Shown here: in pieces, positions 40,659 to 61,627 of the stretch
Layout: each line of letters begins with the position of its first letter
Position numbering within the stretch: position 1 is the first letter of the stretch
From: Streptomyces ferrugineus
GTDB taxonomy: Bacteria > Actinomycetota > Actinomycetes > Streptomycetales > Streptomycetaceae
NCBI RefSeq assembly: GCF_015160855.1
Contig: NZ_CP063373.1
Coordinates: forward strand, 3,038,001 to 3,102,000
DNA: 64,000 nucleotides
Reading direction: 5' to 3'
The notes under the pieces: generated by a model
Databases searched by the model: none
Seen by the model: only the letters and a program-made list of their open reading frames with translations
Told to the model about the DNA's origin: nothing
Program-made: the position numbers and the translations under genes

Positions 40659-40771
40659 GCTGCTCGCCTTCGGAAGTGCGGGTTCGTGACGTCGCACAGG
40701 CTGCCACGCGAACGCCGCATATCGGGTCATTCGGCTTGCGTGGCGCCGCGTCGGCCCGGAGGGTCGAACCC

Positions 40772-41749
40772 ATGAAGGGCATCAGCTACTCACGCTACGG
40801 CGGGCCCGAGACGCTCGCATACGGAGATGTGCGCGACCCGCGGGTGGGCCCGGACTCGGTCCTGGTCAAGGTGCGGGCGGCGGCGGTCAACCCGGTGGAC
40901 TGGAAGTGCCGCGAGGGCCATATGGACCGGCTGCTGGAGCCGGTCTTCCCGGTGGTCCCGGGCTGGGACGTCGCCGGTGTGGTGGTCCAGCCGGGCGTGT
41001 CCGTCACGGAGTTCGCGGTCGGCGACGAGGTCATCGGGTACGTGCGCGAGGACGTCCTGTCCCACGGCACCTTCGCCGAGTACGTCGCCGCCCCCGTGCG
41101 CACCCTGGCGCGCAAGCCCCGCAACCTCACCTGGGAGCAGGCGGCCGGACTGCCGCTGGTGGGGCTGACGGCGTATCAGGTGCTGACCAGGGTCCTCCGG
41201 GTCGAGCGGGGCGAGACGGTCCTGGTGCACGCCGCGGCGGGCGGGGTCGGCTCGATCGCCGTCCAGCTCGCCCGCCATCTGGGCGCGCGGGTGATCGGCA
41301 CGGCGAGCGAGCACAACCACGACTTCGTGCGCGACCTGGGCGGTGAGCCCGTGGAGTACGGCGACGGCCTGACGGAACGGGTGCGCGGGCTGGTGCCCGA
41401 CGGCGTGAACGCGGCGTTCGACACGGTCGGCGGCGATGCGCTGAAGGTCTCCGCCAATCTGCTGGCCCCCGAGGGCCGCCTGGTGTCGATCGCCGACCCG
41501 GACGTCTTCGACTACGGCGGCCGCTACTACTTCGTCCGCCCCGACGCGGAGGACCTGCTGCGGCTGTCGGAGCTGGCGGAGCAGGGGGTGGTGACGGTGC
41601 ATGTCTCGCAGACGTTCCCGCTGGACCGGACGGCCGACGCCCACCGCCTGAACCAGGAGGGCCGCACGCGCGGCAAGATCGTGGTGACCGTGGACTGGGA
41701 GACGGAGGAGGCGCTGGCGCCGGAGGGGTTGTGGCAGGGCACGGAGTAG
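40772..41749 (+). CDS. NADP-dependent quinone oxidoreductase-like protein (MDR family)
   Basis: A 325-aa medium-chain reductase without zinc ligands. The N-terminal substrate domain has AAAVNPVDWKCREG and GWDVAGVV. The cofactor-binding region shows VLVHAAAGGVGSIAVQLARH and FDTVGGD. Such enzymes reduce quinones or enones with NADPH. ATG 40772 has GGAGGG at a workable distance. It is divergent from the His-rich gene and followed by the degenerate repeats at 41780-41996. Confidence 0.92.
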   Translation: MKGISYSRYGGPETLAYGDVRDPRVGPDSVLVKVRAAAVNPVDWKCREGHMDRLLEPVFPVVPGWDVAGVVVQPGVSVTEFAVGDEVIGYVREDVLSHGTFAEYVAAPVRTLARKPRNLTWEQAAGLPLVGLTAYQVLTRVLRVERGETVLVHAAAGGVGSIAVQLARHLGARVIGTASEHNHDFVRDLGGEPVEYGDGLTERVRGLVPDGVNAAFDTVGGDALKVSANLLAPEGRLVSIADPDVFDYGGRYYFVRPDAEDLLRLSELAEQGVVTVHVSQTFPLDRTADAHRLNQEGRTRGKIVVTVDWETEEALAPEGLWQGTE

Positions 41750-41779
41750 CGGAGGGCGCGCTGCCAGCCCCGCCTGCCT

Positions 41780-41996
41780 TCAGAAGAGGAGTGTGGCGCC
41801 GCATGGTGCTCTGTGGGTTCGGTGGTGGGTGAGGGTTCGGTGCTCGCGGCAGCTCTGTCCGCTCTCAGAAGAGCAGCGCGGCGGCGCACGGAGCTGGCGC
41901 TGCTGTGAGCGGGATCGTGGCTGTCGGATGAGGCGGGGCAGGGGCGGTGTTCGGTGGTGGGTGAAGGGCTGGCGCTCGCGGCAGCCTCGCCCGCTC
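41780..41996 (-). repeat. Two degenerate tandem copies of the 3' end of the adjacent DUF202 gene
   Basis: The sequence beginning TCAGAAGAG (the stop and last codons of the DUF202 gene, seen in plus orientation at 41997) recurs at 41865 and 41780. Copy spacing is 132 and 85 bp. All copies share GAAGAGnAGnGnGGCGnCGCA. The two outer copies also share GTTCGGTGGTGGGTGA and GCTCGCGGCAGC, and the GGATCGTGG tract of the gene is kept in the middle copy. The copies have no intact frame, so they are decaying duplications filling this 247-bp gap. Confidence 0.75.
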
Positions 41997-42314
41997 TCAG
42001 AAGAGCAGCGTGGCGCCGCACACCGCCAGTGCCACCGTGACCAGGATCGTGGTCGTCGCATGGCGTGGGGCCAGCGCCGGCGGTTCGGGCGACGCGGCGA
42101 GGGCGCGGATCCGGTGGTGGGCGAGGGTGAGGAAGGCCAGCCACAGGACGCAGGACAGGGCGCCGGCCAGGATCCCGGTCGCCGAGACGCCGCCGTGCAG
42201 CGCGGTCTTCATGGCGAGTACGGCGACCACGGTGCCGGACAGGGTCGTACGGCGCCACGCGAGGCGCGTTCGCTCGGGCTGGAGCCCCGGGTCCCGCACC
42301 GGCTCGGCGCTCAT
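41997..42314 (-). CDS. DUF202 family small membrane protein
   Basis: A 105-aa protein with three predicted helices. The DUF202 pattern is visible in the N-terminal QPERTRLAWRRTTLSGTVVA, followed by hydrophobic segments around residues 20-40, 45-65 and 85-104. It ends almost within the last helix. Its start overlaps the stop of the paired DUF202 gene (ATGA), so they form one operon and perhaps a heteromeric membrane complex. Function unknown. Its 3' end has been duplicated downstream. Confidence 0.85.
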   Translation of the reverse strand: MSAEPVRDPGLQPERTRLAWRRTTLSGTVVAVLAMKTALHGGVSATGILAGALSCVLWLAFLTLAHHRIRALAASPEPPALAPRHATTTILVTVALAVCGATLLF

Positions 42315-42703
42315 CCCTCCCACCCGACGAGCACGACGACGACCATCGCGAGGGCCACCACCGCGACCACCAGGCTCAGCAGCGCGGGGAACCGTGACAC
42401 CGGCAGGTCCTCGCCCCGCCGCATCGCCCGCTCGCAGCGCACCCAGTGATTCACCGCGCGCAGCGAGCACAGCACGCCCGCCGCGAGCAGCGCCAGCGCG
42501 AGCCCGACCCGCCAGCCCCAGCGCAGGTCCGGCAGGAACTGGTCGACCGCGAAGCCGCCGCCGATCAGGGCGAGGGCGGTGCGCAGCCAGGCCAGGAAGG
42601 TGCGCTCGTTGGCCAGTGAGAACCGGTAGTCGGGGGTGCCGCCCTCCTGCCGGACCTCCTGCGGCGCGAACCACAGCCGGACGTTTCGCACGAACTCGCT
42701 CAC
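42311..42703 (-). CDS. YidH/DUF202 family membrane protein
   Basis: A 130-aa protein of the YidH subtype. The N-terminal RFSLANERTFLAWLRTALAL motif defines the family and is followed by three helices (about residues 40-60, 66-84, 108-127). It lies upstream of, and overlapping, the second DUF202 gene. The role of this widespread pair is unknown. Confidence 0.9.
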   Translation of the reverse strand: MSEFVRNVRLWFAPQEVRQEGGTPDYRFSLANERTFLAWLRTALALIGGGFAVDQFLPDLRWGWRVGLALALLAAGVLCSLRAVNHWVRCERAMRRGEDLPVSRFPALLSLVVAVVALAMVVVVLVGWEG

Positions 42704-54349: not shown

Positions 54350-54724
54350 CTAGCTCAGAAACTCCCCGTCGACATACACCCAGGCCCCGTCGACCCGCTC
54401 GAACCGGCTCCGCTCATGCAGCGACCCGCCCCGGAAGGACGCCCGGAACGTCACCGTCCCCGTGGCGTGGAACGCCGAACCGTCCGTCGTCCCCAGGATC
54501 TCCAGCCCGGTCCACCGCATCCCCGGATCGAGCTCCAGCCGCGCCGGCCGCGTCCGCGGATGCCAGGTACGCAGCAGATACCCCACCTCGCCCATCACGA
54601 ACGCGCTGTACCGCGACCGCATCAACGCCTCGGCGGTGGGCGCGGCGCAGGCACCGGCGTGATAGCGCCCGCAGCACCCGTCGTACGACTCGGGCAGCCC
54701 GCACGGGCAGGAACGCGTCGTCAT
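54350..54724 (-). CDS. YchJ family protein
   Basis: A 124-aa protein. The N-terminal CPCGLPESYDGCCGRYHAG is the zinc-binding SEC-C-like motif, followed by AEALMRSRYSAFVMGEVGYL and the NTF2-like domain (VTFRASFRGGSLHERSRFER) of the YchJ family. The family function is unknown. It starts about 13 bp after the M1 peptidase stop on the same strand, so it may be co-transcribed with it, although it lies outside the usual poly-amino-acid theme. Confidence 0.93.
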   Translation of the reverse strand: MTTRSCPCGLPESYDGCCGRYHAGACAAPTAEALMRSRYSAFVMGEVGYLLRTWHPRTRPARLELDPGMRWTGLEILGTTDGSAFHATGTVTFRASFRGGSLHERSRFERVDGAWVYVDGEFLS

Positions 54725-54737
54725 GGCGGCCATTGTG

Positions 54738-56171
54738 CTAGCCCGCCGCCCGCGTCCGCGCCCCCGGCAGCGGTGGCAGTGCCGTGCCGTGTACCCACGC
54801 CTGGAGCAGCTCGTCCACCGGCTCGGTGGCGAAGCGGGCCACGTGTGCGGCGAAGGCGGCCGTCGTCACCGACCCGCCCCGGTGCAGCTGGGCCCAGCCG
54901 CGCAGCATGCGGAAGAAGGCGATGTCGCCCAGCGCGCAGCGCACCGCGTGCAGGACGAGGCCGCCGCGTTCGTAGAGCCGGTCGTCGAACATCGACTTGC
55001 GGCCCGGATCCCCCAGCCGCAGATCCTGCGGCTGCGACGCCAGCAACCGGTGTGCGGCGGCGGCGAGTTGCTGTGCGGTACGGCCGCCCGAGCGCTCCGA
55101 CCACAGCCACTCCGCGTACTTCGCGAACCCCTCGTTCAGCCAGATGTGCCGCCAGTCCGCGATCGACACGCTGTTGCCGAACCACTGGTGCGCCAGCTCG
55201 TGCGCCACCAGCCGCTCCGAACCCCGCGCCCCGTCCACGTGGTTGGCGCCGAACAGCGACAGCCCCTGTGCCTCGACGGGCACATCGAGCTCCTCCTCGG
55301 TCACCACGACCGCGTACTCGTCGAACGGGTACGGCCCGAACAGCTCCTGGAAGACCTCCATCATCTGCGGCTGGCGCGCGAAGTCCCGGGAGAACTCCGG
55401 CAGCAGATGTGCCGGGATGTGCCCGTGCTGCGGCACCCCGCCCAGGCCCGGGTCGCCCAGCAGCACCGCCTGGTACTTGCCGATCGACAGGCCGACCAGA
55501 TAGCTGGACGTCGGCGCCGACTGCTCGTACACCCAGGTCGTCGTCGACGCCTTGGTCGTCCGGGTCAGCAGGCGCCCGCCCGCCACCACCGCGTACGCCG
55601 ACGGGGTGGTGACCGAGATCTGGTACGACGCCTTGTCGGCCGGCCGGTCGTTGCACGGGTACCACGACGGCGCCCCGATCGGCTGGCTCGCCACCAGCGC
55701 CCCGTCCTCCAGTTCCTCCCAACCGAGCCCGCCCCAGGGGCTGTTCACCGGCTTGGGGTTGCCCGACCAGTGCACCTCCACCGTGAAGGCCGCCCCGGCG
55801 CGGACCGGCTTGGCCGGGCGGACGCGCAGCCTGCCGCCGCGGTGCGTGTAGTGCGGCTGCCGGCCGTCGACCCGGACCCGCCCGATCCGGAAGCCCGCCA
55901 GGTTCAGCACGAACTCGGTCAGCGGCGCCCGCCCCGCGATGGCGTTGATGCGGGCCGTCCCCGACAGCCGGTTCGGGCCCGGGCGGTAGTCCAGCGCCAG
56001 CTCGTACCGGTGCACCCGGTACCGGGGGTCGCCGTGCTCCGGGAAGTACGGGTCCGCGCCCGCCGCCTGCTGAACTGCCACCGCTGTCTGTGCTCCCTGC
56101 GCCTTACCGCTGCCACTGAAGTGCCGGCCCACCGCCTCCGGCCCCGAGTGGGCCGCGCTCAGGGACGCCAT
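54738..56171 (-). CDS. M1 family metallopeptidase, coupled to the Pls-like synthetase
   Basis: A 477-aa zinc aminopeptidase-type protein. The zinc site is intact: H324, E325 and H328 in VAHELAHQWFG, and E347 in WLNEGFAKYAEW. The usual GAMEN N-terminus-binding motif is altered to PVEAQ, keeping the Glu (E300). No clear signal peptide is present. Its ATG lies inside the last codons of the synthetase gene, so translation is coupled. From memory, poly-epsilon-lysine-degrading enzymes of Streptomyces are Zn aminopeptidases. Trimming of, or self-protection against, the synthetase product is therefore a reasonable inference. Confidence 0.9.
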   Translation of the reverse strand: MASLSAAHSGPEAVGRHFSGSGKAQGAQTAVAVQQAAGADPYFPEHGDPRYRVHRYELALDYRPGPNRLSGTARINAIAGRAPLTEFVLNLAGFRIGRVRVDGRQPHYTHRGGRLRVRPAKPVRAGAAFTVEVHWSGNPKPVNSPWGGLGWEELEDGALVASQPIGAPSWYPCNDRPADKASYQISVTTPSAYAVVAGGRLLTRTTKASTTTWVYEQSAPTSSYLVGLSIGKYQAVLLGDPGLGGVPQHGHIPAHLLPEFSRDFARQPQMMEVFQELFGPYPFDEYAVVVTEEELDVPVEAQGLSLFGANHVDGARGSERLVAHELAHQWFGNSVSIADWRHIWLNEGFAKYAEWLWSERSGGRTAQQLAAAAHRLLASQPQDLRLGDPGRKSMFDDRLYERGGLVLHAVRCALGDIAFFRMLRGWAQLHRGGSVTTAAFAAHVARFATEPVDELLQAWVHGTALPPLPGARTRAAG

Positions 56172-59100
56172 GCCTCGATCGGATTGCCGAGCCAACGGGT
56201 GTCGTCGGGGACCGACTCCGCCGCCATGACGAGCGACGCGGGACCCAGCGTCGTACGGGCCCCGATCGCGCTGCCGGGCAGGACGATCCCGCCAGGACCC
56301 AGCGTCGCGCCCTCACGGAGGACCACAGTATCCGTCCGCAAGATCCGGTCGTGGAAGAGGTGCGTCTGGAGCACACAGCCCCGGTTCACCGTGGCCGCGT
56401 CCTGAAGGGTCACCAGATCCGTCTCCGGCAGCCAGTAGCTCTCGACCCACACACCCTTGCCGATGCGCGCGCCGAGCCCTCGAAGCCACGCCGTCATCAC
56501 CGGCGTACCCGGCACCGAACCGGCCAACCACGGCACCGCGAGCACCTCGACGAAGGTGTCGGCCAGCTCGTTGCGCCACACGAAGGAGGACCACAGCGGA
56601 TGCTCACCGCTGTGATGCCGCCCCACCAGCAGCCACTTCGCCACGATCGACACCAGCCCGGCGGCGGCACCCGCCGCGAGCAGCACAAGACCCGACAGCA
56701 GCGGCGCCCAGACCCCCAGCGCACACAGCGCGGCGATCGTCAGTACCGCGAGCCCCGCCGAGCAGAACACCGGCACGATCCGGCACAGCTCCACCAGACC
56801 GCGCGCCCACAGCAGCCGGGCCGGCGGCTCGTACGTCCGGCTCTGGTCGCCGTCGGCCGCGGCGCGCGGCAGCTTCACCGGCGGCAGCCCCAGGTACGAG
56901 GTGCCCTTCTTGGCCTTCTTCGGCGTCGCCGACAGCACCCCGACCAGCCCGCCGTCCGGCACCGAACGCCCCGGCGCGGTCATCCCCGAGTTCCCGAGGA
57001 AGGCCCGCCGCCCGATCTGAGCCCGCCCGATCCGCATCCAGCCACCGCCGAGCTCGTACGGCGCGGTCAGCGTGTCGTCGGCCAGGAACGCGCCCTCGCC
57101 GACCGTGGTCAGGCTCGGCAGCGCCAGCACCGTCGACACCTCGGCGCCGCGCCCGACGCGCATCCCGAGCAGCCGCAGCCACACCGGCGTGACCAGCCCG
57201 GCGTACAGCGGGAACAGGGTGTCGCGCGAGCGGTCCATCAGCTGGGTGACGGTCCAGGCCTGCCAGCCGACCCGGCTGTGCGTGGGATGGGTGCCCTCCC
57301 GCAGGCCCAGGCTCAGCAGCCGTACGGCGATCAGGATCAGCAGCGCGTACGCCGCCCCGAAGGTGAGCGTCGCCGGCACGAGGGCCAGCGCGGCGCCCGT
57401 CAGTGGCGCGTCCGGCGTGAAGAACACCAGGGCCACGAGGAACGCGGCGGCGCCCGCCAGCACCGGCAGCGCACTCAGCGCGAAGCCCGTCAGGCCGTAC
57501 ATCACCCGCCAGTACGTGCCCCGCCGCGGCCGCTCCTTGGGCCAGTTGCGCTTGGCCTTGCCCAGCTTCACGGCGGGCGCGCCCGCCCACCGCTGACCGG
57601 TGGGAACCTGCCCGGTGACCGCCGAACCCGGCGCCACCTCGGCCCGCTTGCCCACCCGGGCACCCGGGAAGAGCATGCTGCGCGTGCCGACGACGGCATG
57701 CGCGCCCACCTTCACGGTGCCGATCTCGAGCCGGTCCCCGTCCAGCCAGTACCCGGACAGATCGACCTCGGACTCGACCGCCGCCCCGCGCCCCAGCTTG
57801 AGCAGCCCGGTGACCGGCGGCAACGAGTGCAGGTCGGCCTCGGGCCCGACCTTGGCGCCCAGCGCCCGCGCGTACCGCTCCAGCCAGGCCCCGGTCAGCG
57901 AGGTCGCCCCGGTGAACTCGGCCAGCCGCTCGGCGGTCCACAGCCGCAGATGGACGCCGCCACCGCGCGGGTAGCGGCCGGGCTTCACGCCCCCGAGCAG
58001 CAGCCGCGCACCCCCGGCGGCCAGCGCGAGCCGCCCCGGCGGGCTGAACAGCACCACGGCCCCGACCGCGAGCAGCCACCAGGGCGCCGTCGGCAGCCAC
58101 CCGTAGGCGGGCAGCAGATTCCCGAGCGCGGCCAGCACGACCGTCCAGCGCAGACCGAGCAGCGTGAACAGCGGAGCGAGAAGCAGCAGCTGGACAAGCT
58201 GCGCCCGCCGGGGCACCGGCGTGACGACACGCTCCGCCCCGTCGTCCTGCGCGGACTCCTCAAGCCGCCGGGCCAGCTTGCGCAGCACCGGCTGCTGATA
58301 GATGTCCAGCACGGCCGCGCTCGGATACCGGGTCCGCAGCCGCGTCGTCAGCTGCGCCGCGGCGAGGCTGCCGCCGCCGATCGCGAAGAAGTCGTCGCTG
58401 GCTCCCGTGACCGGGATGCCCAGCACCTCGGTCCACTGCTCGGCGAGCCAGGCCTCGGTGCCGTACAACTGCTCGGCACGCCCACCCGTCTCGACGCCCT
58501 CCAGGGGCCAGGGCAGGGCCGCGCGGTCCACCTTGCCGCTCGTACGGGTCGGCAGATCGTCGACCGGCGCCAGCAGCGGCACCAGCGCGGCGGGCAGCTC
58601 CGCCCGCAGCTTCTCCACCGCCACCGCCTGGTCCCAGCCGTCCTGGGTGACGACGTACCCGACGAGGAGCTGGTTGCCGCTGCGAGCGGTCCGCACCGCG
58701 GCGGCCGCACCGGCCACGCCGGGCAGCGCCTGCAACGCGGCATCCACCTCACCGAGCTCGATCCGCCGCCCGCCGAGCTTGATCTGCTCGTCGGCCCGCC
58801 CGAGGAAGACAAGACCCTCCGGCTCCGCCTTGACGAGGTCACCACTGCGGTACGCCCGCTCCCAGCCCAGCGACTGGAGCGGCGCGTACTTCTCCGCGTC
58901 CTTCTCGGCGTCGAGATACCGGGCGAGACCCACCCCGCCGATCACCAACTGCCCGCTCGCCCCCATCGGCACCGGCTCCCCGGCCTCGTCGACGACGGCC
59001 AGCTCCCAGCCGTTCAGCGGCAGCCCGATCCGGATCGGCTCCTCGCCGCTCATCAGCGACGCACACGCCACGACGGTCGCCTCGGTCGGCCCGTACGTGT

Positions 59101-60013
59101 TCCAGACCTCGCGCCCCTCGGTCACCAGCCGCTGCGCCAGCTCGGGCGGGCAGGCCTCACCGCCGAAGATCAGCAGCCGTACGTCATTGAGGGTCTCCGG
59201 CTCCCAGAGCGCGGCCAGCGTGGGCACGGTCGACACGACCGTGATCTCCTGCTCGACCAGCCACGGCCCGAGATCGGCGCCGCTCCTGACCTGCGAGCGC
59301 GGCACCGGCACCAGACAGGCGCCGTACCGCCAGGCCAGCCACATCTCCTCGCAGGACGCGTCGAACGCCACCGAAAGACCCGCCATCACCCGGTCCCCGG
59401 GCCCGATCGGCTCCTCGGTGAGGAACAGCGCGGCCTCGGCGTCCACGAACGCGGCGGCGCTGCGGTGCGAGACGGCGACGCCCTTCGGCCTGCCCGTCGA
59501 CCCGGAGGTGAAGATGATCCAGGCGTCGTGCTCGACGCCCGGGCGCGCGGCGGCGACGTCACCGCGCGAGTACACGGTCAGCTCGTGCCCGGCCCCGACG
59601 ACGGCCCGTACGTCCGCCTCCCCGAACACCAGCTCGGCCCGCTCGTCCGGGTCCTCGGCGTCCACGGGGACATAGGCGGCACCGGCCGCGAGCACGGCCA
59701 GGATCGCGATGTACAGGTCATTGGTGCCGGACGGCACCCGCACGCCGACCCGGTCGCCGCGCCCGACCCCGGCCGCGGCGAGCGCCCGCCGCAGCCGCTC
59801 CACCTCGACGGCCAGCGCCCGGTAGGTCAGGCTGCTCGTGCCGTCGTCCAGCGCCGGCTCGTCCGGGTAGGACCGCACCGACGCGTCGAAGATGTCGACC
59901 AGCGTGCGGGGGGAGGCCGCCGGACCTCCGGAGAAACGTGCCCTGTCGCCGAACTTCTCGCGGATCTCTTCGTCGAGCAGGCCGAGAGCATCGCTCTCGT
60001 GGATCGCTGCCAT
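56159..60013 (-). CDS. Pls/PosA-type membrane non-ribosomal peptide synthetase
   Basis: A 1284-aa protein. The adenylation domain (about residues 35-500) has FTSGSTGRPKG (168-178), YRSGDLV and K494 (SGKVDR). The carrier domain follows, with the phosphopantetheine Ser S549 in FFAIGGGSLAA. From about 604 there are three pairs of transmembrane helices, each followed by a left-handed beta-helix domain. This is the A-T-(TM-C)x3 layout of epsilon-poly-L-lysine synthetase; no condensation HHxxxDG or thioesterase is present. Pocket residues read D218 A219 E222 S261 I282 G284 T306 V314 V315 K494. It probably makes an isopeptide-linked basic poly-amino acid. ATG 60013 fits the family start. Confidence 0.92.
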   Translation of the reverse strand: MAAIHESDALGLLDEEIREKFGDRARFSGGPAASPRTLVDIFDASVRSYPDEPALDDGTSSLTYRALAVEVERLRRALAAAGVGRGDRVGVRVPSGTNDLYIAILAVLAAGAAYVPVDAEDPDERAELVFGEADVRAVVGAGHELTVYSRGDVAAARPGVEHDAWIIFTSGSTGRPKGVAVSHRSAAAFVDAEAALFLTEEPIGPGDRVMAGLSVAFDASCEEMWLAWRYGACLVPVPRSQVRSGADLGPWLVEQEITVVSTVPTLAALWEPETLNDVRLLIFGGEACPPELAQRLVTEGREVWNTYGPTEATVVACASLMSGEEPIRIGLPLNGWELAVVDEAGEPVPMGASGQLVIGGVGLARYLDAEKDAEKYAPLQSLGWERAYRSGDLVKAEPEGLVFLGRADEQIKLGGRRIELGEVDAALQALPGVAGAAAAVRTARSGNQLLVGYVVTQDGWDQAVAVEKLRAELPAALVPLLAPVDDLPTRTSGKVDRAALPWPLEGVETGGRAEQLYGTEAWLAEQWTEVLGIPVTGASDDFFAIGGGSLAAAQLTTRLRTRYPSAAVLDIYQQPVLRKLARRLEESAQDDGAERVVTPVPRRAQLVQLLLLAPLFTLLGLRWTVVLAALGNLLPAYGWLPTAPWWLLAVGAVVLFSPPGRLALAAGGARLLLGGVKPGRYPRGGGVHLRLWTAERLAEFTGATSLTGAWLERYARALGAKVGPEADLHSLPPVTGLLKLGRGAAVESEVDLSGYWLDGDRLEIGTVKVGAHAVVGTRSMLFPGARVGKRAEVAPGSAVTGQVPTGQRWAGAPAVKLGKAKRNWPKERPRRGTYWRVMYGLTGFALSALPVLAGAAAFLVALVFFTPDAPLTGAALALVPATLTFGAAYALLILIAVRLLSLGLREGTHPTHSRVGWQAWTVTQLMDRSRDTLFPLYAGLVTPVWLRLLGMRVGRGAEVSTVLALPSLTTVGEGAFLADDTLTAPYELGGGWMRIGRAQIGRRAFLGNSGMTAPGRSVPDGGLVGVLSATPKKAKKGTSYLGLPPVKLPRAAADGDQSRTYEPPARLLWARGLVELCRIVPVFCSAGLAVLTIAALCALGVWAPLLSGLVLLAAGAAAGLVSIVAKWLLVGRHHSGEHPLWSSFVWRNELADTFVEVLAVPWLAGSVPGTPVMTAWLRGLGARIGKGVWVESYWLPETDLVTLQDAATVNRGCVLQTHLFHDRILRTDTVVLREGATLGPGGIVLPGSAIGARTTLGPASLVMAAESVPDDTRWLGNPIEAWRP

Positions 60014-60361
60014 CCGGTCCTCGCGTCTCGATCCCGGATGCCTCCGGGGCGCTGGCGGGCCCGCAGGTCTGCCTGGGGTTGTCCGGCTCCAGCTCCGTAA
60101 CAAGCCGGAAATTTTAGTACGACGCTAGGTTCGGGGCCGTGGTTCGGCCACTTGGGACGGCTGTCCAGGGCTTGTGGAGCCCGGCAGACGGGCGCTGACC
60201 TGGTGATCTTCTCTGGACGAGACTTACCCCACACAGTGTGTGACGGGGCGGTGGACACAGCGTCCGGATGGCCCATTCCGAGGTGCCGGAGCCCCTGGGT
60301 TCGGCGGGAATGGACTCGAACCGCGGGTGGCCGCGGGCGGTGTTCCGATGCCGGAGGACGG
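60014..60361. other. Divergent intergenic region of 348 bp before the synthetase
   Basis: No gene is supported here. The region must hold the synthetase promoter on the minus strand; an AT-rich AAATTTTAGTAC tract lies around 60107-60122. A CACACA-G-TGTGTG palindrome at 60230-60242 precedes the divergent membrane-protein gene. Confidence 0.45.
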
Positions 60362-61627
60362 ATGCCGAACCCACTACAGGGCGGTCGTACGGGCAGGGTC
60401 CTGCGCCGTACCGCGTCGGCGGTTCTGATCGTCCTCGCCTGCGTCCTGGTCCCGGTCACCGTGATCACGGTGTGGGTGCACGACATCGCCCTCGACACCG
60501 ACCGCTACGTCAGGACCATGGAGCCGCTCGCCTCCGACCCCGCCATCGAGGACGCCGTGCACGACCGGCTCGTCGACGCGGTGGACGTGCGCGTCAACGG
60601 CGAGCAGGTGACCGCCGACATCGCGGCCTGGCTCCAGTCGCAGGGCCTGCCGCCCCGCGCCGCCGCGGCGGTCAAGGCGCTCGCCCCCCAGCTGGACGCG
60701 GCCGCGCACGCCGCCGCGGACCGGGTGGCGACCCGCTTCGTCGAGAGCGACCGCTTCGAGCAGCTGTGGACCACGGCCAACCGCACCGCCCACTCGGCCG
60801 TGGTGCACGCCCTGACCGGCAAGGGACGCGGGGCGATCGACGTCGAGGAGGGCACGGTGACCCTCGACGTCGGAACCGCCGTGGAGGGGGTCCGACAGGA
60901 TCTGGTGGACGCCGGTCTGCGGCCGGCGTCCAGGATCCCGGACGTCGAGAAGCGGGTGGTCCTGTTCAAGTCCGACGAACTCGACCAGTTCCAGGACGCG
61001 GCGCACGCGCTGGACCTGGCGGGCTACTGGATGCCGGTGATCACCGTGCTGCTCGGCGCGGCGGGCGTCGCGCTGGCCCACCGACGCCGCCGCGCACTGG
61101 CGAAGGCGGCCCTGGGCGCGGCCCTCGGCTGTCTGATCGTCGCCATCGGGCTGGTCGTCGCCCGCCGCTACTACCTCGACCACCTGCCGCGGACCGTCCT
61201 GTCCGAGCCGGCGGCGGCCGCGGTCTTCGACACCCTGCTGCGCTTCCTGCGGGTCACACTGCGCACCGTGATCGTGCTCGGCGTGGTCGTCGCCCTCGGC
61301 GCCTACCTCGTCGGCCCCGGGCGCCTGCCGCGCGCCGTGCGCGGCCGGGCCGAGCGGGGCGCCGACGCCACCGCCCGGTGGGCCGGCTCCCGCGGCATCA
61401 CCACCGGACCGGCCGGGACGTGGACGGCGGCCCACCGGGGCGCGCTCACGGCCGGCGTCCTGCTGCTGATCACCGTGCTGTTCGCACTGTGGAACAACCC
61501 CACGCCCGCGACGGTCCTGGTGCTGGTGATCATCCTGCTGGCGGCACTGGCGGTGATCGCCCTGCTCGCGGCCGACGGCCGCAGCAGGCCCCCGGCGACC
61601 CCGGAAAAGCAAGAAACCCCTGGTTGA
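60362..61627 (+). CDS. Integral membrane protein of unknown function
   Basis: A 421-aa protein with GGAGGA before ATG 60362. One N-terminal helix (about 16-38) is followed by a ~200-residue extracytoplasmic domain (DTDRYVRTMEPLASDPAIED; AHSAVVHALTGKG). Helices then lie at about 225-245, 250-272, 300-325 and 365-405, in two tight pairs. It resembles a family of actinobacterial membrane proteins of unknown role. The stop codon lies inside the tRNA-Leu terminator. Confidence 0.75.
   Translation: MPNPLQGGRTGRVLRRTASAVLIVLACVLVPVTVITVWVHDIALDTDRYVRTMEPLASDPAIEDAVHDRLVDAVDVRVNGEQVTADIAAWLQSQGLPPRAAAAVKALAPQLDAAAHAAADRVATRFVESDRFEQLWTTANRTAHSAVVHALTGKGRGAIDVEEGTVTLDVGTAVEGVRQDLVDAGLRPASRIPDVEKRVVLFKSDELDQFQDAAHALDLAGYWMPVITVLLGAAGVALAHRRRRALAKAALGAALGCLIVAIGLVVARRYYLDHLPRTVLSEPAAAAVFDTLLRFLRVTLRTVIVLGVVVALGAYLVGPGRLPRAVRGRAERGADATARWAGSRGITTGPAGTWTAAHRGALTAGVLLLITVLFALWNNPTPATVLVLVIILLAALAVIALLAADGRSRPPATPEKQETPG

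Follow-up and report, generated by a model that had tools for sequence, protein, structure and literature searches.

The closest described system is the pls-pldII gene pair of Streptomyces albulus, in which the synthetase of the antimicrobial polymer epsilon-poly-L-lysine (ε-PL) has the domain order A-T-(TM pair + C)x3 and a lysine pocket, and its gene overlaps a downstream gene for an M1 peptidase. The same layout is found at the locus analysed here, which lies in a 64,000-nt stretch of Streptomyces ferrugineus DNA (hereafter the window). Outside the genus, a Pls from Corynebacterium variabile, 51% identical to Streptomyces Pls, is reported to make ε-PL when expressed in S. coelicolor, and the same report describes no detectable ε-PL in culture of C. 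variabile itself (PMC8117764). Within Streptomyces, 730 clusters are reported as matched to ε-PL (PMC11734326). The pls-pldII pair and its frequency in the genus are already in print, and the finding as first reported is ordinary. As a Pls locus, that of the window joins hundreds already recorded in the genus. One difference emerged, however: the coupled peptidase of the window branch apparently lacks the export signal of the albulus type.

The locus was compared with 80 genome loci, taken as the top scorers among at least 592 and hence biased towards the branch of the window; further samples drawn evenly from the genus and the phylum were added. The count of 92 of 246 in the even genus sample is a lower bound, obtained with six candidates scored per genome at an E limit of 1e-120, and G132, which has a window-type peptidase, was missed in it. 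Among the 83 weaker matches of that sample, window-type status was judged by identity (46-49% to locus L010, the stand-in for S. albulus), and 20 of these matches were examined as loci L147-L166.

The synthetase open reading frame spans 56159..60103 on the minus strand and has an ATG at 60013, giving a protein of 1284 aa (56159..60013). The codon-position GC of the gene (0.75/0.53/0.93) follows the same pattern as in the other clear genes that were measured. The preliminary description had proposed a Pls-like synthetase, and the protein is indeed of the Pls/PosA type, with 841 bits against the cut-off of 423 for NCBIfam TIGR02353 over residues 607-1279. Also in line with that description, there is one adenylation domain (residues ~26-501, 58511..59938, minus strand; match to 7wew_A over residues 26-505) and one carrier domain (residues ~515-591, 58241..58471, minus strand; PP-binding, 36.8 bits, residues 522-584). 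The carrier serine, Ser549, is the expected phosphopantetheine site and is kept in all 84 sequences compared (the window and 83 loci). Because the Pfam scan yielded just AMP-binding, AMP-binding_C, PP-binding and a Hexapep match slightly below cut-off, the synthetase has no condensation or thioesterase domain detectable by Pfam.

The fold of the C-terminal part (residues 607-1284, 56162..58195, minus strand) was assessed by profiles and hydropathy, and in this way the observed architecture agrees with the three TM-pair/hexapeptide-type units previously suggested. The soluble segments 668-838, 908-1070 and 1134-1284, corresponding to hexapeptide-like domains C1-C3, match each other with probabilities of 97.8, 98.8 and 97.1% in profile-profile alignment, against 0.6-11.3% for the carrier domain as a control. 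They alternate with hydrophobic segments at residues ~603-630, 647-665, 840-871, 874-905 and 1072-1131; the last run has room for two helices, so that the TM segments can be read as three pairs. The second segment is weak, a reservation on this reading: its mean hydropathy over the 84 sequences stays below 1.5, with values of at least 1.6 in 23 sequences and at least 1.2 in 80. The same scan also flags residues 99-120, a false positive within the adenylation domain.

All ten residues of the adenylation pocket, DAESIGTVVK, are those of 7wew (the 7wew pocket being read by eye from the alignment), and this lysine-type pocket recurs in each of the 83 loci compared with the window. The chain 7wew_A, named ε-PL synthase by its depositors, is 66.5% identical to the adenylation domain of the window protein, and the corresponding domain of the L010 Pls is 89.7% identical to 7wew. 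Since the pocket equals that of a solved ε-PL synthase, lysine is strongly predicted as the monomer and ε-PL is the likely product. The product had previously been described as unknown, which no longer holds for the monomer. Use of another diamino acid (ornithine, diaminobutyrate, diaminopropionate or beta-lysine), giving another cationic polymer, appears very improbable. The choice of lysine is supported by the adenylation pocket only, full-length identity to the annotated ε-PL synthase of L010 is only 55%, and other Pls/PosA members are reported to use different substrates (PMC10522769). Against such a switch stand the identity of the whole pocket and the pls-peptidase operon, a gene context described as unlike that of the other three synthetases (PMC8117764). 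In addition, the genome holds no match to lysine 2,3-aminomutase, which argues against a beta-lysine polymer; together with the lysine-type pocket, this led us to reject that candidate.

Directly downstream of pls, and overlapping it by 13 bp, lies a gene for an M1 zinc peptidase of 477 aa (54738..56171, minus strand; Pfam Peptidase_M1, 94.8 bits), as the open reading frame coordinates, Pfam and an intact zinc-site motif (HELAH-x18-E) confirm for a pairing already noticed in the preliminary description. The pairing is conserved: an M1 gene follows pls in 82 of the 83 loci, in 24 of 25 evenly drawn genomes of the same genus (gene places compared by eye) and in 7/7 loci from other families, and the HExxH-x18-E motif is present in all 82 coupled peptidases. 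The M1 family is large, with eight matches in this genome including the window gene, and the peptidase might therefore be a general aminopeptidase that follows pls incidentally. This is hardly credible given how consistently the pairing is kept; moreover, a single branch of the tree (100/99) parts 44 Pls-coupled peptidases from four paralogues of the same genome, and PldII is reported to degrade ε-PL (PMC8117764, PMC9223678).

The locus was originally delimited as 54350..60013. The part holding the synthetase and M1 genes stands, and the start at 54350 takes in a gene that had gone unmentioned, for a YchJ-like protein (54350..54733, minus strand) starting 4 bp past the M1 stop. Because a YchJ-like gene is matched in only 26 of the 83 related loci, at varying distances, we did not count it as part of the system, and it probably lies outside it. 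A larger cluster was rejected as well, the recognised neighbours having no evident part in polymer making. These neighbours are a GntR regulator, a gluconokinase, a GntP permease, an alcohol-dehydrogenase-like protein and an M20 peptidase, alongside an open reading frame of unknown family. A scan for promoters and terminators returned none of either and is uninformative in this high-GC DNA.

The coupled peptidases fall into two types by their N-termini, as called by hydropathy and an RR rule rather than by a trained predictor; the RR rule cannot tell Tat from Sec and is also tripped by three of the four paralogues of the same genome. By these calls, a twin-arginine-like export signal is present in 11/11 albulus-type Streptomyces peptidases, whereas none was found in 81 named loci of the window branch, in 20 loci from further genomes of the genus or in seven loci from other families. 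The best N-terminal 12-residue hydropathy mean is 0.48 for the window peptidase and at most 1.47 among 81 non-albulus-type relatives, against 1.53-2.43 in the 11 of the albulus type. The hydropathy part of the rule flagged L183. An earlier, looser scan flagged the window-branch peptidases L073 and L089, both about 38 residues in; these flags sit in the conserved protein body and are not signals. A literature search on PldII and an export signal gave no mention of PldII among the matches listed.

PldII has been reported to sit on the outside of the membrane (PMC9223678), and the four M1 paralogues of similar size in the same genome all have a hydrophobic N-terminus and look exported. The window peptidase might therefore be exported like PldII by a route invisible in its N-terminus, in which case the locus would function in just the same way as the S. 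albulus pls-pldII pair. This is a minority possibility, disfavoured by the missing hydrophobic stretch in the window peptidase and its relatives. Going by the N-terminal sequence rule, the peptidase gives no sign of being exported. Its probable place of action is the cytosol, where it would meet polymer that has stayed in the cell or returned to it. The earlier term "trimming peptidase" consequently needs care.

Judged by its sequence and by analogy, this is very probably a functional ε-PL locus of the pls-peptidase type already described. In it, the adenylation domain would activate L-lysine with ATP and load it onto Ser549 of the carrier domain, and the three membrane-anchored hexapeptide-like domains would then join lysines singly through bonds from alpha-carboxyl to epsilon-amino groups. 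The translationally coupled M1 peptidase would hydrolyse the polymer and, if cytosolic, could serve in self-protection, length control or lysine recovery. Polymerisation and ε-PL hydrolysis are taken here from characterised relatives. A bolder and rather doubtful reading is that Streptomyces has two separate polylysine systems, one of the albulus type with an exported peptidase acting on a secreted antibiotic, and a commoner window type with a cytosolic peptidase. The window-type polymer would then be made for or controlled in the cell interior as a reversible polycation, e.g. bound to polyphosphate or DNA, and not primarily be an antibiotic. One genome carries both pairs, which fits non-redundant roles.

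Among known systems, PosA, the delta-poly-L-ornithine synthetase, is named in the same NCBIfam family and is described as having the same overall architecture; its second pocket position is methionine, whereas the window has alanine, in keeping with the reported pattern of alanine in Pls, methionine in PosA and phenylalanine in PDAP/PDAB synthetases (PMC10522769). The coryneform Pls belongs to a different genus and was compared through its published description (PMC8117764). The best PDB matches of the window peptidase, the zinc metalloprotease 6a8z / 6iff (216 bits, residues 16-470), are a chain of 474 aa with the same catalytic motif, and we know of no link between them and a Pls. With respect to S. 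albulus, represented by L010, the window synthetase is 55.3% identical and the peptidase 47%. The two genes overlap by 13 bp in the window as against a reported 4 bp in S. albulus (PMC4361855), and the window peptidase lacks the twin-arginine-like signal of albulus-type peptidases. Should this last difference prove genuine, the function attributed to S. albulus PldII might not extend to the commoner Streptomyces pls type, and polymer handling inside the cell becomes testable in such strains.

The synthetase and peptidase genes lie on the minus strand of a 9.96-Mb genome assembled as a single contig with 100% completeness. The ORF for the Pls-type synthetase (1284 aa; 56159-60013, -) is overlapped by 13 bp by the gene for the M1 peptidase (477 aa; 54738-56171, -), and a YchJ-like gene (PF17775; 54350-54733, -) starts 4 bp after the M1 stop; it is because the latter gene was taken in that the preliminary description began the locus at 54350. 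In loci L033, L035, L047 and L055, too, the M1 match is followed after 6-11 bases by a YchJ-like match, which lies farther away in 22 others. Upstream of pls, a divergent ORF (60152-61627, +) matched no Pfam or NCBIfam family, and its codon-position GC suggests coding on that strand.

The Pfam search identified AMP-binding, AMP-binding_C and PP-binding domains in the synthetase, together with Hexapep just below cut-off; neither a condensation nor a thioesterase domain was detected. The carrier serine is in place, and the NCBIfam Pls/PosA family TIGR02353 matched with 841 bits (cut-off 423), this being the single Pls-family protein over cut-off in the genome. The synthetase with one adenylation and one carrier domain, lacking condensation and thioesterase domains and overlapped by an M1 gene, was correctly described from the DNA. 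Hydropathy gave TM runs at about 603-630, 647-665, 840-871 and 874-905 plus an extended run, 1072-1131; together these can be read as three pairs, in a scan that has false positives (it also flags 99-120 within the adenylation domain). Segment 647-665 is weak, that is, absent at 1.5 from the mean of 84 sequences, and in single sequences it reaches at least 1.6 in 23 of 84 and at least 1.2 in 80 of 84. The three soluble segments, C1 (668-838), C2 (908-1070) and C3 (1134-1284), are mutually related by hhalign (C1/C2 97.8%, C1/C3 98.8% and C2/C3 97.1% probability), the carrier domain used as control giving only 0.6-11.3%. By these sequence methods only (hydropathy and hhalign), the three TM/hexapeptide units of the preliminary description appear to be present, and the layout is that given for Pls in PMC8117764.

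The best match among solved structures was the adenylation domain 7wew_A of an epsilon-poly-L-lysine synthase, presumably that of S. albulus (656 bits, residues 26-505, 66.5% identical). The ten pocket positions, placed by gramicidin-synthetase numbering, are D218, A219, E222, S261, I282, G284, T306, V314, V315 and K494; they are identical in all 84 sequences (the window and 83 further loci), and 7wew has the same ten letters in its alignment with the window protein, as read by eye. Lysine 2,3-aminomutase gave no match in the window genome (0/1), with matches in 9 of 14 control genomes. According to PMC10522769, the second pocket position matters for chain length and is alanine in Pls, and PMC8117764 reports epsilon-PL made by a Pls 51% identical to the Streptomyces enzyme. 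Taken together, these points make lysine the likely monomer. By analogy with relatives, the C-terminal domains would join monomers iteratively by isopeptide bonds, and the coupled peptidase would cleave epsilon-PL.

Among the 120 best relatives listed, the top ones, with 95-96% identity, came from Streptomyces and in many cases from S. chartreusis; by this kinship the host belongs to Streptomyces. A genome-collection scan returned at least 592 relatives; in the 83 loci made up of the best 80 of these and three annotated plasmid loci, an M1 gene adjoins pls in 82, the sole exception being Rhodococcus opacus pROB01, and HExxH-x18-E is kept in all 82 peptidases. Of 61 genomes drawn evenly from the genus, 26 had a full-length match of at least 931 bits, which divide into an upper tier (22 at 1225-1293 bits, window included) and a lower one (four at 931-962), with an adjacent M1 match, places being compared by eye, in 24 of the 25 genomes other than the window's own (missing in G166). 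TIGR02353 was over cut-off in 85 of 121 genomes family-wide. Of 246 genomes drawn evenly from the phylum, 12 had a match at E 1e-200; five belong to the window's genus, and in each of the other seven pls adjoins an M1 match. Epsilon-poly-L-lysine (730) is among the most recurrent known Streptomyces clusters in PMC11734326, and PMC10749237 reports that S. justiciae WPN32 has this cluster with 100% similarity; the Pls of another S. justiciae strain (L055) is 92.6% identical to that of the window.

Further relatives were also encountered. Two Pls-family proteins without an adenylation domain, L096:1387-4536 (-) and L114:856-3753 (+), from Streptomycetaceae genomes G080 and G013, consist of a carrier domain and the TIGR02353 C-terminus (806-886 bits). 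Each adjoins a gene whose translation resembles, by eye, a condensation-adenylation NRPS, and no M1 gene lies within the fetched stretches. Frames of 812-1002 aa in the family-wide and genus scans may be of the same kind. Synthetases of the Pls/PosA type that share 57-60% identity with that of the window are encoded on plasmids of R. opacus, Mycobacterium avium and M. intracellulare. Besides an albulus-type pls, genome G325 has two more Pls-family matches (C68:27877-29829 and 40701-42611), which score about 370 bits and are 11 kb apart.

The branch here called albulus-type is that of L010 (Streptomyces sp. NBC_01454), which carries an annotated epsilon-poly-L-lysine synthase with an A domain 89.7% identical to 7wew; the gene for its M1 peptidase overlaps that of the synthase by 4 bp. 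Taken from the annotated start, this peptidase shows CSRRALIRG and a hydrophobic stretch in its N-terminal region. It had matches at E 1e-120 in at least 92 of 246 genus genomes, 10 at 62-82% identity (albulus-type) and 83 at 46-49%, which was taken as window-type, G257 having both. In 11 of 11 albulus-type peptidases (the 10 and L010) there is an RR motif with a hydrophobic stretch after it. This combination was found in none of 81 loci of the 83-locus set (the 82 bearing M1, less L010), none of 20 further genus loci (L147-L166, with the window's own copy, L150), none of seven loci (L169-L175) that represent different families within the class and none of L134-L136 and L177. When the first 70 residues were scanned, L073 and L089 were flagged, in each case at a place within the conserved protein body and not in a signal. 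As a control, the N-terminus is hydrophobic in all four similarly sized M1 paralogues from the window's genome (L179-L182); because three of them also trip the RR rule, the rule cannot tell Tat from Sec. Among three large own-genome M1 proteins, L184 and L185 were unflagged and L183 was flagged, though probably in a stretch that precedes its true start.

A tree of 48 chosen peptidases (26 window-type, 11 albulus-type, seven other and the four paralogues) places the albulus type in one clade (100/100) and splits off the paralogues (100/99). With the paralogues as outside group, signal loss in the window's branch is the shorter reading, but their rows are long, and the branch that gathers the peptidases without a signal has no star (92/98). 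Both lineages coexist in the Streptomyces genome G257 (L177, L186, L176, L193), each with its own M1 type, an upper-tier pls (1260 bits) standing beside a signal-less peptidase on contig C24 and a lower-kind pls (886 bits) beside a signal-bearing one on C2. The window's peptidase, which has no visible export signal, would act in the cytosol, where its substrate would be polymer that has not yet been exported or has entered the cell.

The reading as a Pls-type synthetase with a coupled M1 peptidase is right, though the system is already published. PMC4361855 describes pls and pldII as an operon with a 4-bp overlap; in PMC9223678, PldII is translationally coupled to pls and sited on the membrane exterior, and its repression gave longer polymer and lower self-tolerance; PMC8117764 reports the same operon in Corynebacterium. 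These papers therefore already cover the architecture, the pairing and the likely product. What may be new, as judged by sequence rules applied to the N-termini, is only that the peptidase has no signal in the commoner Streptomyces branch.
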